This document shows, piece by piece, positions 5,798 through 13,237 of a stretch of 64,000 bases of DNA. The notes below the pieces were generated by a model. The model was not told the origin of the DNA, made no database searches, and saw only the letters and a program-made list of their open reading frames with translations. The position numbers and the translations under genes are program-made. Source of the stretch: Nonomuraea coxensis DSM 45129 (lineage in GTDB: Bacteria; Actinomycetota; Actinomycetes; Streptosporangiales; Streptosporangiaceae); assembly GCF_019397265.1 (NCBI RefSeq), contig NZ_CP068985.1, forward strand, positions 7,537,001-7,601,000, written 5' to 3'. Each line of letters opens with the position of its first letter. The first letter of the stretch is position 1.

Positions 5798-7303
5798 TTA
5801 CTCGGACACGCCCAGCTTCTCCAGGATGAGCTGCCGGGCGCGGGCGGCGTCCGCCTTGCCCTTGCTGGCCCGCATGACCCCGCCGACCAGCGCGCCGGCG
5901 GCGGCGATCTTCCCTGCGCGCACCTTGTCGGCCGCGTCGGCGTTGTCGGCCAGCACCTGGTCGATGATCGCCGACAGCTCGCCCTCGTCGTTGACGATCT
6001 TCAGCCCGCGCGCCTCGACGACCTCGTCAGGGCTGCCCTCGCCGCCGAGCACGCCCTCCAGCACCTCGCGCGCCAGCTTGTCGTTGAGCGCGCCGGAGGC
6101 GACCAGCTCGGTCACCCGCGCGACCTGCGCCGGCGTGATGGCCAGCTCGGCCAGCGGCACGCCGGTCTCGTTGGCGCGGCGGGCCAGCTCGCCCATCCAC
6201 CACTTGCGCGCGTCGGCCGCCGGCGCGCCGGCCGCGACCGTCGCCTCGACCAGGTCGAACGCGTCGGCGTTGTGCATGGCCTGCATGTCGAGGTCGGACA
6301 GCCCCCACTCGGCCTGCAGCCGCCTGCGCCGCACCGACGGCAGCTCGGGCAGCGCCGCCTTCAGCTCGGCCACCCACGCCGGGTCGGGCGCGATCGGCAC
6401 CAGGTCGGGCTCGGGGAAGTAGCGGTAGTCCTGCGCCTCCTCCTTGGAACGCCCGGACGTGGTGGTGCCGGTGTCCTCGTGGAAGTGCCGGGTCTCCTGG
6501 ACGATCGTGCCGCCGTCGGCGAGGACGGCGGCCTGCCGCTCGATCTCGCTCCGCACGGCCCGCTCGACGCTGCGCAGCGAGTTGACGTTCTTGGTCTCGG
6601 TGCGGGTGCCCCACTCCGACGCGCCGCGCGGCATCAGCGAGACGTTGACGTCGCAGCGCAGCGAGCCCTCCTCCATGCGCACGTCGGAGACGCCGAGCGA
6701 GCGCATGATCTCACGCAGCTCGGTGACGTACGCGCGGGCGACGTCGGGCGCGAGCCGGTCGGTGCCGGGGATGGGCTTGGTGACGATCTCGACCAGCGGG
6801 ATGCCCGCCCGGTTGTAGTCGACGATCGAGTGGTCGGCCCCGTGGATGCGCCCGGTCGCGCCGCCCACGTGGGTGGACTTGCCGGTGTCCTCCTCCAGGT
6901 GCACCCGCTCGATGCCGATGCGCACGGTCTCGCCGTTCACCTCGACGTCGAGGTAGCCGTCGAAGCAGAGCGGCTCGTCGTACTGGGAGATCTGGTAGTT
7001 CTTCGGCATGTCCGGATAGAAGTAGTTCTTCCGGGCGAAGCGGCACCACTCGGCGATCGAGCAGTTGAGCGCCAGGCCGATGCGGATCGTCGACTCGATC
7101 GCCATGGCGTTGGCCACCGGCAGCGCGCCGGGCAGCGCCAGGCAGGTCGGGCAGACCTGCGTGTTGGGCGGAGCGCCGAAGGTGGTCTTGCAGCCGCAGA
7201 ACATCTTCGACCTGGTGCCCAGCTCGACGTGCGTCTCCAGCCCGAGCACCGGCTCGAACCGCTCCAGCGCTTCGTCGTACGGCATGAGCGTACCGGCAGT
7301 CAT
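5798..7303 (-). CDS. gatB: Asp-tRNA(Asn)/Glu-tRNA(Gln) amidotransferase subunit B
   Basis: GatB is the tRNA-binding and kinase subunit of the GatCAB amidotransferase, which converts mischarged Glu-tRNA(Gln) (and Asp-tRNA(Asn)) using ammonia from GatA. The 501-residue length is normal. Diagnostic segments are [18 protein letters not shown] with [12 protein letters not shown] (the zinc cysteines), [27 protein letters not shown] and the GatB/YqeY tail ([17 protein letters not shown]). The ATG at 7303 is preceded by AAGGAC. Unusually, it is separated from gatA by two unrelated genes on the same strand, so it may depend on transcription running through them. Confidence 0.97.
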
Positions 7304-7353
7304 GATGAGGTCCTTAGTTCAGATCGTTGCTTTTCAAGCTATCGCGTGGACGG

Positions 7354-7929
7354 TCAGAGGAAGCCATGGCTCCTCAGCGCCTTCGAGGTGGCCTCCACCC
7401 AGCCCGCGTAGGCGGGCAACTGGGCCAGCACGGCGAGATCGACGTGATCACCGGCGAAGGCGAAATGCTCGTCCACCTTCCGGTGACGCACTCCTGCCAG
7501 CACGGCTCTCAGCACGGACTTCGGATCGGGAAGTCTCTCGGCCTCGCGCGGCTTGCCCGGCAGGCGGCTGAGGTCGACGCCGGGAACCCGGGCCCACACC
7601 TGGGCGTCCACCAGGAGCCATGCCTCGGTCTCCTTCACGGGCACCAGAGGAATGACACTCTCGCCGGCGTGCCGGGAAGCCTTGTCCCGTTCCCGGTGGT
7701 CGCTGTGCAGGAAGATCAGATGGCAATCGTCCGCCAGCTCCTGGATGGCCTGCCGGACGCGGTCGTCATCCTTGATCATGCGGCACACGCCGTACTGCAC
7801 CGCCTGCACGTCCACCGGACGTGGCGCGTGATCCGTCAAGGCTCGGAGCTGGCGCCCGATGACCCTGCCGAGGAAGAGCTCGTCCGTGTCGCCCTCCGTG
7901 ACCAGTCCTGGCACGAGCGGCCGGCTCAT
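7354..7929 (-). CDS. DUF4276-family, TOPRIM-like protein
   Basis: Small protein of 191 residues matching DUF4276 in layout. An N-terminal VTEGDTDELFL (Glu12) is followed by LIFLHSDHRERD (Asp77) and then VPVKETEAWLLVD (Glu100, Glu102). The order of an early Glu and a later Asp-rich strand resembles a TOPRIM nuclease core, the fold assigned to DUF4276-type proteins. Nuclease activity is inferred. Its ATG overlaps the stop of the upstream ATPase gene (ATGA), implying matched synthesis of the two proteins, and it ends 50 bases before gatB. Codons such as CCA, GGA, CGA, TTG and CGT are more common than in the flanking gat genes, which suggests transfer. It recalls split OLD or PARIS-type ATPase plus TOPRIM pairs, but no homology search was run. 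Confidence 0.7.
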   Translation of the reverse strand: MSRPLVPGLVTEGDTDELFLGRVIGRQLRALTDHAPRPVDVQAVQYGVCRMIKDDDRVRQAIQELADDCHLIFLHSDHRERDKASRHAGESVIPLVPVKETEAWLLVDAQVWARVPGVDLSRLPGKPREAERLPDPKSVLRAVLAGVRHRKVDEHFAFAGDHVDLAVLAQLPAYAGWVEATSKALRSHGFL

Positions 7930-8981
7930 GGCACCTGTCCGACCGTGCTCAGGTAGCTGCGCACCTGACGTGGGGACACGAAAGTGCCCGGCTCTCCCGA
8001 CCTGCGCACCGGCTTGGCGACGGTCACCCGGGATCGAGGGCTCCCTCCGCCGGTCCGCCAGACCGACTCGAGGAAGACCAAGGCGTCCGGCGCCGCCTGG
8101 TAGAGCGTCGACACCGCGACGGGTGAGTGGGTGGTGAGGATCACCTGCCGCCAGGATCGCTCCGTGGCCCCCACGCGCTGCGCGGCCCTCTCCAGCAGTT
8201 GCCCGAGCCTGCTCGGGTGCAGACCGTTCTCCACTTCCTCCACCATGAGCAGGCCCGAGGACGACGGGTCGTAGAGGGCGGCCAGCAACGCCAGCACCCG
8301 CAACGTGCCGTCGGACGCGAGCCTGCCCGGCATCGGCTCATGGTCGACGAGAATGTCGAACGACCACTCCTCCTGCCGCTCGTCCAGAACCGGACAGACG
8401 CCCGTGACGTCGGGTATCAATGCGGAGACGTCCACCATGAGGTCGTCCAGCTCACCCGTGTCCTTCATCCTGCCCAGCACCGCTGCCAGATTGGCGGCGT
8501 TCTCCGTCAGTGGCCGGCGGTCGTGCGCCGAGGCCGGGCGCCGCATCGCAGCAGGGTCCGGCACGTGGAAGTGCCAGCGCCGGGCTTCCTCGGGCCACAC
8601 CTTCTGCCCAGCCGCACGGGGCGAGGTCTCCACCGACCAGCTCCCGGACCTGACGGCCTCGATCCGAGCGCCGATCCTCTCCCAGGAGGCGTGCGGTCCC
8701 GGCTCCGCGACGACGTTCATCGTGAACCGCGGCGACGGACCCTGTCCCATCGGCCGGTGGAACAACTCCTGCGGTTTGCCTCTTCTCGGAGTGAGCAGCG
8801 GGTCCTCGTCGGCGAACGCCATGCTCGCGTGGGACATCAGGGCCGAGCGGGCGAACGCCAGCGCGTCCAGCAGGTTGGACTTGCCGCTGGAGTTCGGGCC
8901 CACGAGGGCGAGGAACGGCGGCACGTCGAGGGCGAAGTCCAGGAAGGACTTGAACCCGTCGATCTCGATGCGCGTGAGCAT
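7926..8981 (-). CDS. AAA/OLD-like ATPase partner of the DUF4276 protein
   Basis: SMC/RecF-like ATPase, 351 residues. It starts MLTRIEIDGFKSF, the classic opening of this class. Walker A is GPNSSGKS (28-35), a signature-like SDGTLRVLALLAAL is at 223-236, Walker B is LLMVEEVENGLHP (from 244) and the switch histidine is in TTHSP (283-287). The protein lacks the C-terminal TOPRIM domain of full OLD nucleases; the neighbouring gene encodes a TOPRIM-like protein and overlaps it by four bases. AAAGGAG lies eight bases before the ATG. The codons ACT, AGA-AGA, AAA, TTG and GGT occur close together, unlike gatA. Location inside the gat operon and this architecture suggest an acquired defence or DNA-damage module; function is inferred. 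Confidence 0.8.
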   Translation of the reverse strand: MLTRIEIDGFKSFLDFALDVPPFLALVGPNSSGKSNLLDALAFARSALMSHASMAFADEDPLLTPRRGKPQELFHRPMGQGPSPRFTMNVVAEPGPHASWERIGARIEAVRSGSWSVETSPRAAGQKVWPEEARRWHFHVPDPAAMRRPASAHDRRPLTENAANLAAVLGRMKDTGELDDLMVDVSALIPDVTGVCPVLDERQEEWSFDILVDHEPMPGRLASDGTLRVLALLAALYDPSSSGLLMVEEVENGLHPSRLGQLLERAAQRVGATERSWRQVILTTHSPVAVSTLYQAAPDALVFLESVWRTGGGSPRSRVTVAKPVRRSGEPGTFVSPRQVRSYLSTVGQVP

Positions 8982-8996
8982 GCCGCCGTCTCCTTT

Positions 8997-9025
8997 CTCG
9001 TCGCTCGTCCGCTCGTCGCTCGTCC
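8997..9025. repeat. Two 14-bp direct repeats at the gatA/ATPase junction
   Basis: CTCGTCGCTCGTCC occurs at 8997-9010 and again at 9012-9025, separated by one base. The repeats fill most of the 59-base gap between the end of gatA and the ATPase start, so they lie in the ATPase leader. They could be a scar of insertion or simple slippage. Confidence 0.7.
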
Positions 9026-9040
9026 TGAAAGCCCGCGGTC

Positions 9041-10527
<1,487 letters not shown>

Positions 10528-10531
<4 letters not shown>

Positions 10532-10827
10532 GCCTCCTCCCCGAGGATGCGCGGCACCTGGAAGCGGTCGTCCTCGACGGCGGGCGCGCCGGAGAGCGCC
10601 TGCTCGGGGGTCAGGGACGGCCGCGCCTCGTCGGCACGGAAGACATTGGTGAGCGGAAGCGCGTGCGACGAAGGCGGAACGTCCTCGGCGGCGACCTCGG
10701 CCACCTTCGCGACCGACTCGATGATGGCATCGAGCTGGGTGGCGTAGTGGTCGAGCTCGTCGTCCGTGAGCGCCAGCCTGGACAACCGGGCCAGGTGTGC
10801 GACCTCGTCGCGGGTTATGGCGGACAT
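10528..10827 (-). CDS. gatC: Asp-tRNA(Asn)/Glu-tRNA(Gln) amidotransferase subunit C
   Basis: Short GatC subunit of 99 residues that stabilises the GatA-GatB complex. The helical N-terminus [20 protein letters not shown] and the C-terminal [26 protein letters not shown] follow the family pattern, where the latter wraps around GatA. It is first in the gat transcription unit and is translationally coupled to gatA. Confidence 0.95.
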
Positions 10828-10973: not shown

Positions 10974-13037
10974 TCAGGCGGTGTGCGTCACCTCGGGCTG
11001 GTAGCCGTACTCGGGGGCTCCCGCGCGCTCGCGCAGCCAGGCCGTGATCTCCGCGGCCGGCATCGGCTCGCCGAACAGCCACCCCTGCCCCACGTCGCAG
11101 CCCATCTCGGCGAGCCGCATGGCGACGTCGTCCGACTCGACGCCCTCCGCGACCGAGCGCAGCCCGAGCGAGCGCACGAGGTCGACGATCGAGCGGACGA
11201 TCCGGTCGTCGTCCTCGGACTCGGCGATCCTGCGGACGAACGAGGCGTCGATCTTGACCTCGGACACCGCCAGCCGCTGCAGCCGGATGAGGGAGGAGTA
11301 GCCGGTGCCGAAGTCGTCCAGCGACAGCGGCACGCCCAGCGTGGCCAGCGCCTTGATCGTCTCCTGCGTGTAGGCCTGGTCGCCGGTCAGGATGCGCTCG
11401 GTCACCTCCAGCTGGATGGCGGCGGGCGGCAGCCCGTAGCGGGCCAGGCCCACCTCCAGTTGCTCGGGCAGCGCCGAGTCGAGCAGGTCGCGGGCCGAGA
11501 TGTTGACCGAGACCGGCACCCGCAGCCCGCCGTGCCACCAGCTCGCGGCCTGCGCCAGCGCCTCCTCGATCACGTACGCCGTGAGCTGCCGCATCAGGTA
11601 GGACTGCTCCGCCAGCGGCACGAACTCCGACGGCGGGATCATCCCGTGCACCGGATGCCGCCAGCGCAGCAGCGCCTCCACGCCTCGCACCGCACCGCTG
11701 TCCAGCCCGACCTCGGGCTGGTAGTGCAGCCGCAGCTCGCCGCCGTCGATGGCGCGGCGCAGGTCACCGAGTAACGTCAGCCGCTCGGGCGAGTTGCGGT
11801 CCTTGTCCGGCTGGTAGAGCTCGACGCCGGTGCGCCCCTCCTTGGCGAGGTACATCGCCACGTCGGCGCGCTGGAGCAGCAGCTCGAAGTCGGGGGCGTG
11901 GTCCGGGTAGAGCGCGATGCCGACCGAGGCGTCCACGTCGAACGTCATGCCCTCCAGCCGCACCGGCTCGGTCAGCGCCGCGCGCAGCCGGGCGGCGACC
12001 TCGCGGGCCGCGTGGGTGTCGCGGATCGAGGGCAGCAGCACGGCGAACTCGTCGCCGCCCAGCCTCGCCACCACGTCGCCTGGCCGCACGGAGTGGGTCA
12101 GGCGGTGCGCGACCATCTGCAGCAGCCGGTCGCCCACCGGGTGGCCCATCGTGTCGTTGACCTCCTTGAACCGGTCGAGGTCGAGCAGGAACAGGCCGAC
12201 CCGTTCGTCCTGGCGGGCCTCGGCCAGCGCCTCCTCGGTGCTCACGATGAGCATCTTGCGGTTGGGCAGGCCGGTCAGCTCGTCGTGCAGCGCCTGGTGG
12301 TCGCGGCGCATGGACAGCGTGGCGGTGAAGTAGACGGCCGCGAGCGGCGCGACGAACAGCGGCACGAGGCCGGGCGTGTGGTTCATGACCACGACGACCA
12401 GCGGCGCCGTGCCGAGCAGCGCGACGTAGACGAGGCTCTGCGGCCCCACGGTGACCCGCAGCACGCGCACGATGGAGCGCCGCTCGTGCAGCGCGACCGC
12501 GCCGCAGACGAGGGTGGCGCGGGTGGCGAAGTAGGCGATCCCGGCCAGCGCGATCGGCACCAGGCCGGGCACGTCGGGCTCCCAGGGCATGGCCGGGCTC
12601 GGCGCGATGCCGAACGCTCCCAGGACCACGGCCGCGGCGGTGAGCGCGAGGGTCGACTGCGCGATGTTGAACATGACCCGGTGCCACGCCTTGCGCGTCA
12701 GCACGCCGTTGAGCGCGACCGCGACGGCCTGCAGCAGCACCGCGACCGGCAGCCCGTAGTGCAGCAGCACGGCGAAGGTGAACATGGTGGACGGGTAGGT
12801 GCCGCCCACCGAGGCGGCGGAGGACACCATCACGGGCCGCAGCTCGCCGAGGATCACGAGGACCACCAGCACCCAGAACAGTGCGGTGCGGGCCAGCGCC
12901 ATGAGCCCTGTGGCGTCGAGCCTGAGCATGGCCACCAGCAGGGCGGTGAAGCCGATCACCGTGATGCCGGCGAGGAACGCCCAGAGCGGCGTGCCGGCGC
13001 GTGGTCCGATGTCGCGGGTGTCGGTTGGGTCAGTCAT
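10974..13037 (-). CDS. Membrane GGDEF-EAL bifunctional cyclic-di-GMP protein
   Basis: Cyclic-di-GMP turnover protein of 687 residues. The first 200 or so residues form several membrane helices with very short loops. A GGDEF domain follows (NRKMLIVSTEEAL, LFLLDLDRFKEVND, ARLGGDEFAVLLP at about residue 325), then an EAL domain (VEALLRWRHPVHG at about 450, LDDFGTGYSSL, VAEGVES). Both GGDEF and EAL/DDFGTG motifs are intact, so synthesis and hydrolysis are both possible. The ATG at 13037 has GGGGG about ten bases upstream; longer in-frame versions back to 13211 add a Gly/Arg-rich tract. The membrane sensor would set which activity dominates. It is monocistronic, with gatC downstream. Confidence 0.9.
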   Translation of the reverse strand: MTDPTDTRDIGPRAGTPLWAFLAGITVIGFTALLVAMLRLDATGLMALARTALFWVLVVLVILGELRPVMVSSAASVGGTYPSTMFTFAVLLHYGLPVAVLLQAVAVALNGVLTRKAWHRVMFNIAQSTLALTAAAVVLGAFGIAPSPAMPWEPDVPGLVPIALAGIAYFATRATLVCGAVALHERRSIVRVLRVTVGPQSLVYVALLGTAPLVVVVMNHTPGLVPLFVAPLAAVYFTATLSMRRDHQALHDELTGLPNRKMLIVSTEEALAEARQDERVGLFLLDLDRFKEVNDTMGHPVGDRLLQMVAHRLTHSVRPGDVVARLGGDEFAVLLPSIRDTHAAREVAARLRAALTEPVRLEGMTFDVDASVGIALYPDHAPDFELLLQRADVAMYLAKEGRTGVELYQPDKDRNSPERLTLLGDLRRAIDGGELRLHYQPEVGLDSGAVRGVEALLRWRHPVHGMIPPSEFVPLAEQSYLMRQLTAYVIEEALAQAASWWHGGLRVPVSVNISARDLLDSALPEQLEVGLARYGLPPAAIQLEVTERILTGDQAYTQETIKALATLGVPLSLDDFGTGYSSLIRLQRLAVSEVKIDASFVRRIAESEDDDRIVRSIVDLVRSLGLRSVAEGVESDDVAMRLAEMGCDVGQGWLFGEPMPAAEITAWLRERAGAPEYGYQPEVTHTA

Positions 13038-13237
13038 CGATAACAGAACCCCCATTAGGTCACTATGGGAGGGTACGACCTTCAGCCCACTTCGCGAAAC
13101 CAAGCGCGTACGGTCCGTAGTTCTCCTTTCCGACATATACCCAAAAAGCACCCTGGGTAGCAAACCATGCCCGGTCCGTACCGGACCCGCCCCCGCCCGC
13201 CCGGCACCCACCGCCCGCGCTCTGGCGAGGGCCGCCC

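Follow-up and report, generated by a model that had tools for sequence, protein, structure and literature searches.

Among the described systems that come closest to the locus presented here, PARIS consists of a separate OLD-type ATPase and a TOPRIM-type protein, i.e., AriA, the sensor, and AriB, a tRNase whose TOPRIM mutant E26A is inactive, and its two genes are sometimes fused (PMC12409363). TOPRIM-linked OLD-ABC ATPases are presented as back-up effectors in PMC12839542, and split OLD systems are discussed in PMC10568477. HEC-01, a Hma-embedded candidate, is a predicted defence system in PADLOC; the Hma/HEC naming appears in PMC8565338, PMC12988326 and PMC10855318, and the preprint cited in PMC12988326 (10.1101/2024.01.29.577857) presumably defines HEC-01. 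A literature search of partial coverage returned no fitting paper joining gat operons and defence, no paper with DUF4276, and none with HEC-01 and PADLOC together.

The window, i.e., the whole 64,000-nucleotide stretch of Nonomuraea coxensis DSM 45129 analysed here (genome G000, 7537001-7601000), carries on its minus strand, in this order, gatC (10528..10827; Pfam GatC 3.4e-20), gatA (9041..10531; Amidase 3e-154), an OLD/AAA_21-type ABC ATPase gene (7926..8981), a gene for a DUF4276-like protein (7354..7929) and gatB (5798..7303; GatB_N 3.8e-113). A sequence-only reading of this DNA had placed an ATPase-DUF4276 pair inside the gatCAB operon, and on this point it was right in coordinates, strand and both ATPase motifs (GPNSSGKS and TTHSP), with Pfam matches for all five genes. 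The two pair genes overlap by four bases (ATGA, 7926-7929), a 59-bp gap without a terminator-like site (8982..9040, minus strand) separates the gatA stop from the ATPase start, and a 50-bp spacer (7304..7353, minus strand), termed here the class I spacer and recognisable in scarred genomes too, lies upstream of gatB. No terminator-like site was found anywhere in 7200-9100, although shuffled sequences predicted only 0.3 for this region; together with the gene overlaps this makes it plausible that expression of the pair is coupled to gat. Upstream of gatC, a long protein on the same strand (window 10974-13211) looks GGDEF/EAL-like by eye.

By sequence, the closest known system of the gat-site pair is HEC-01. 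The top PADLOC model is HEC-01A for the ATPase (PDLC04184, E 1.9e-71, 239.5 bits) and HEC-01B for the DUF4276-like protein (PDLC04210, E 3.2e-34), HEC-01A and HEC-01B are likewise the best matches of one class II and one class III pair (allele classes are described below; ATPases at 1.7e-78 and 1.4e-159), and the genes are adjacent and overlapping. The difference lies in the surroundings: the family described here sits at gatA-gatB in two actinobacterial families, with gat genes as direct neighbours. The pair shares with PARIS the split into ATPase and TOPRIM-type protein, and also the occurrence of fusions, with both parts in one open frame in two relatives (G056, L159 and G894, L205). However, the best AriA model (PDLC02980, 102.6 bits) falls below HEC-01A on the window ATPase, and AriB is absent among the ten PADLOC families listed for the DUF4276-like protein at E<=0.1 (nine HEC-01B, one PDC-M25B; we assume that PADLOC contains an AriB model). 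Membership in PARIS is thus ruled out, and of the earlier comparison with that system the two-gene, ATPase/TOPRIM-like module of defence type (HEC-01A/B) survives. Single-chain OLD proteins of class 1/2 and GajA resemble the pair in ATPase type, and the DUF4276-like protein aligns with OLD TOPRIM domains and with GajA, but the window has two overlapping genes instead of one chain, and gat neighbours with no helicase. As for MADS, Mad3 is the top NCBIfam match of the ATPase, yet its 112.3 bits stay far under the curated cut-off of 420, and only two non-gat genes are found here.

The ATPase is a putative sensor. Its best Pfam family is AAA_21 (1.1e-29), which carries the label of a putative AbiEii toxin, and its structure model (pLDDT 85.7) retrieves SMC heads, PtuA and Rad50 in Foldseek. 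The Walker A motif GPNSSGKS (residues 28-35; 8877..8900, minus strand) and the H-switch TTHSP (residues 283-287; 8121..8135, minus strand) are both present, and K34, S223, E248 and E249 are kept in 56/56 aligned ATPase rows.

The partner protein is more divergent from its nominal Pfam family. Pfam DUF4276 reaches only 21.7 bits on the window protein, under the gathering cut-off of 30.2, so that the HMM search proposed by the sequence-only reading gives HEC-01A/B as best matches and leaves DUF4276 below threshold; in alignment A4, 26 of 30 members match DUF4276 at E<=0.01 (best 4.9e-15). The structure model (pLDDT 92.0) found no Foldseek match at E<=0.001; VIA-align placed the OLD TOPRIM structures 6nk8 (Z 7.3 over 161/191 residues) and 6njw (Z 6.8 over 156/191) at ranks 3 and 5, as the longest alignments among the 50 rows listed. 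Ranks 1 and 2 go to an Argonaute (115 residues, Z 8.2) and a hypothetical protein (153 residues, Z 7.7), so Z alone is not decisive and the match is a middling one. Two putative TOPRIM acidic motifs can be recognised in the alignments, i.e., EGDTD (residues 12-16; 7882..7896, minus strand) and H-x-D (residues 75-77; 7699..7707, minus strand), and E12 together with H75-x-D77 is kept in 53/53 rows outside one clade, called here the degenerate clade; their identity as TOPRIM residues is by analogy. We consider that the DUF4276-like protein is likely a TOPRIM-like nuclease, as a prediction and not a proof, and a putative effector. This protein also matched interferon-gamma in the PDB (best 2.6e-6), which we take for a chance similarity; the listed fold matches include no interferon.

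In the genomes sampled, the gat site is the rule for close relatives. A GTDB scan with ten DUF4276-like sequences yielded 15 loci (seven Nonomuraea, one Spongiactinospora, six Microbispora and one Streptacidiphilus), 15/15 between gatA and gatB. In a sample of 297 Streptosporangiaceae genomes from 68 genera, with at most ten candidates scored per genome, 86 genomes match the DUF4276-like protein at E<=1e-10, and 72 strong matches (E<1e-17) occur in 71 of the 297 genomes and 20 of the 68 genera. All 72 sit between gatA and gatB (seven in Nonomuraea, 54 assigned by coordinates in 53 genomes, and six plus five by reading the loci). Weaker matches in this family number 23, and the 17 that were compared with the gatB position all lie elsewhere. 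An ATPase match adjoins in 11 of 13 non-gat loci that were read, and in the ATPase tree 14 non-gat ATPases form one branch (SH-aLRT 100) apart from those of the gat site. A second, divergent ATPase-DUF4276 pair of this non-gat branch exists in the genome of the window itself, outside the window at ~7336.4-7339.2 kb (L209). The fused copy of G894 is of gat type in the ATPase tree and situated away from gat; no gatB was seen in the 11 kb read around it, and neighbouring frames look transposase-like by eye.

In Streptomycetaceae, a match at E<=1e-8 is present in 24/297 genomes. Twelve of these matches are strong (E<1e-40), and 11 of the 12 immediately precede gatB, with gatA farther upstream. One empty site in this family (G550, L210) holds a small ORF between gatA and gatB that resembles a membrane protein by eye. 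A class-wide sample (394 genomes, including Streptosporangiaceae) added only five matching genomes outside that family, all weak and with no gatB within ~1.5 kb or less on each side, and against phage and plasmid sequences the protein gave only three weak plasmid matches and one weak phage match. The initial picture of an insertion specific to this strain therefore does not hold: same-site relatives in 20/68 sampled Streptosporangiaceae genera, and in Streptomycetaceae, rule out a recent one.

Presence at the site is nevertheless far from uniform. All 54 Nonomuraea genomes were read at gatA-gatB, and ten have an intact pair, 12 are scarred (15-560 bp without an intact pair) and 32 are empty (gap of -16 to +5 bp). 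Pieces of the ATPase are recognisable in four scars at E<=2e-10 and in two at ~6e-4, one further piece (E 0.008) is marginal with the best shuffled control at 0.014, and the five shortest scars (15-44 bp) were recognised by the class I spacer. The nearest relative of the window strain by GatB (G052, 99%) has only a 278-bp scar. Outside Nonomuraea, both gat positions were available in 95 genomes, a sample skewed to near relatives: 53 have a DUF match in the interval, in 28 the gap is <=31 bp, in 13 it is 95-544 bp, with pair remnants at E<1e-4 in ten of the 13 and not in the other three, and one (G188) has a 1741-bp interval with a broken DUF gene. Within the 53 occupied sites the ATPase itself was read in 32 and deduced from interval size in the other 21, among which the 782 bp of G135 make a complete pair impossible. 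Across all 149 genomes with both flanks measured, no interval >600 bp lacked a match to the pair and no other cargo was seen. Two unusual arrangements were noted in addition: in G086 (L146, G086:C24) the gatA-gatB interval holds two tandem ATPase-DUF pairs, each of a different class, and in G112 (L141 6510-7739), which is outside the 149, the pair is separated from gatB by an opposite-strand gene whose product resembles, by eye, a cell-wall-anchored surface protein.

The Nonomuraea pairs fall into three classes with DUF identities to the window of 75-80%, 51-55% and 25-27%. The ATPase tree disagrees with GatB: forcing the ten Nonomuraea ATPases into one clade is rejected (delta lnL 482, p-AU 7e-9), with the caution that this is a quick tree with long branches. 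On a gat tree built from gatA and gatB bodies with the junction left out, class II and class III each need three changes for three rows, empty versus the rest needs six, of which well-supported branches force three, and the four states together require 12; the allele classes conflict with the gat tree in Nonomuraea. A comparison of gat loci across relatives, as the sequence-only reading had suggested, finds patchy presence, alleles at odds with the gat tree, and common scars, and not the uniform carriage, ordinary codon use and immobility that would have counted against that reading. The flanks follow the state of the site: the GatA C-terminal KEAP is found at 32/32 sites with a gap <=5 bp and at 0/22 with a gap >=15 bp, and GatA C-termini track the occupied or scarred versus the empty state in 54/54 Nonomuraea genomes, with GatB N-termini differing likewise (the window has the occupied-site type at both ends, SLLSQAPEL in GatA). 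In genus g65, G169 and G224 differ by a dS of 0.17 in both pair genes vs 0.317 in gatB. Recombination between homologous gat flanks would account for the exchange of alleles and states within families.

Codon use differs between the pair and gatA and gatB, as the earlier reading had said, with GC3 of 0.895 (ATPase) and 0.853 (DUF) vs 0.988 and 0.982, and with AGA, AAA, TTG and CGA together occurring 15 times in 542 pair codons vs three times in 1096 gatC/A/B codons (AAA itself contributes one codon in the pair and one in gatA). However, among the relatives listed, ATPase GC3 is below gatB GC3 in every pair, and a lower GC3 therefore does not on its own point to a recent acquisition.

Intact pair genes are under purifying selection, with dN/dS of 0.05-0.41 across 17 comparisons of ATPase and DUF genes, some of which are not independent. 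Within the ATPase, conservation breaks down in a hypervariable segment, residues 81-135 (8577..8741, minus strand): in five class I/II groups mean identity is 18-52% there, 43-74% in residues 45-80, and 70-98% in residues 1-44 and 136-351, and the ATPases of L119 and L123 are 32% identical at 81-135, 68% at 45-80 and 81-100% elsewhere. In class III the segment is not variable (73%), and the variable region is the C-terminal part (56%). Outside the degenerate clade, dN in 81-135 is 0.33-0.79 and dS 0.55-1.45 in eight of nine comparisons (0.17 and 0.42 in the ninth). With both rates high, the data fit replacement of the segment, to which misalignment may add, better than the point-wise positive selection that was also considered. 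The variability points to residues 81-135 as the likely sensor region of the ATPase, i.e., a putative recognition region.

The degenerate clade comprises four genera (g5, g15, g44 and g58) that form one branch (SH-aLRT 100), and the pair is present in 23/23 of its sampled genomes (16, 1, 4 and 2, respectively). P97 and K137 of the DUF4276-like protein, kept in 53/53 other rows, are replaced in all 13 rows read from this clade; E12, H75 or D77 is replaced in seven of the 13, and all three are kept in six. The ATPase retains K34, S223, E248 and E249 in 13/13, with N252 replaced in six and H285 in three; loss of the Walker B glutamate, hinted at by a regular expression, was dismissed on the alignment. 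Residues 81-135 are here as conserved as the rest (75%), ATPase GC3 is 0.91-0.975, and dN/dS is 0.09-0.41. These sequences suggest that the pair has been domesticated in this clade, its effector site partly lost and its segment 81-135 no longer variable.

We consider the most probable reading (roughly 60%) to be that the pair is a HEC-01-type, PARIS-like module that combines a sensor ATPase with a TOPRIM-type nuclease and stays at gat because alleles are exchanged through the flanking genes. The ABC ATPase would hold the DUF4276-like nuclease until it senses a phage protein or damage done by a phage, probably via residues 81-135; the activated nuclease would then cut nucleic acid, which might be tRNA, as for AriB, or DNA, which OLD cuts, and the infection would be stopped. 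The pair would be read together with the gat operon, and alleles, scars and the empty state would swap through recombination between the conserved, homologous gat flanks, which would let the pair stay at gatA-gatB while its alleles arise, spread and decay in the manner of defence genes. Phage sensing, nuclease activity and target, co-transcription, and recombination as the exchange mechanism are what we infer here. Points that speak against this reading are the middling TOPRIM match, the lack of variability at 81-135 in class III, the possible share of alignment error in the high dN and dS of that segment, and the pair being the only cargo seen at the gat site, in contrast to defence hotspots.

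The constancy of the position invites a different explanation, namely that the pair is functionally tied to GatCAB and guards or regulates tRNA amidation, the ATPase sensing, for instance, disturbed formation of Gln- or Asn-tRNA, or the effector acting on those tRNAs, and that selection, not only recombination, holds it in place. All 72 strong Streptosporangiaceae matches at gat, 11/12 upstream of gatB in Streptomycetaceae, the absence of other >600-bp cargo in 149 genomes, and the overlap of DUF and gatB frames in classes II and III (by our placing of the gatB start) speak for such a tie, and so does the ATPase of Streptomycetaceae G714 (GC3 0.593), 71% identical to that of Nonomuraea class III though GatB is at 68%. 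Retention in 23/23 genomes of one clade with altered effector residues also hints at a gat-linked role. Frequent absence and decay, however, argue against the link as a necessity: 32 of 54 Nonomuraea lack the pair and 12 more have only scars, G052 at 99% GatB identity among them, and some related ATPase-DUF4276 pairs are located outside gat, including one in the same genome. We regard this tie as unlikely, and hold with slightly more doubt its stronger form, in which GatCAB is the partner, i.e., the pair monitors or targets Gln-/Asn-tRNA amidation, and works, spreads and is domesticated only beside gatB. Patchiness and frequent decay, two overlapping genes, a seat in an essential operon and the description of the ATPase's best Pfam family as a putative AbiEii toxin would suit a toxin-antitoxin-like or selfish addiction module, with the ATPase as restraint, the TOPRIM protein as toxin and defence at most a side effect. 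That is improbable in our view, as is persistence of such a module by killing cells that lose it or through its place in the operon, since the scars next to intact gat genes mean that cells tolerate losing the pair, and strong variability is concentrated in one ATPase segment and not spread evenly over both genes. An ordinary, vertically inherited housekeeping accessory of the gat operon, finally, is very improbable as a general account, being contradicted in Nonomuraea by patchy presence and by alleles that run against the gat tree; high ATPase GC3, 23/23 presence and purifying selection speak for it in the degenerate clade, and such inheritance may apply within that clade.

With the HEC-01-type defence module as the preferred reading, the locus offers an example of one defence-type module tied to a single essential-operon position across two actinobacterial families. 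The gat site provides one address at which to trace how a single module is gained, exchanged, degraded and domesticated, in forms that are intact, replaced, scarred, empty, tandem or fused, and in a degenerate clade with the pair fixed in our sample. The hypervariable segment, missing as a feature in the clade with altered effector residues, marks the likely sensor region and opens it to tests. Should GatCAB be the partner instead, the degenerate clade would have converted its sensor into a permanent regulator of gat.
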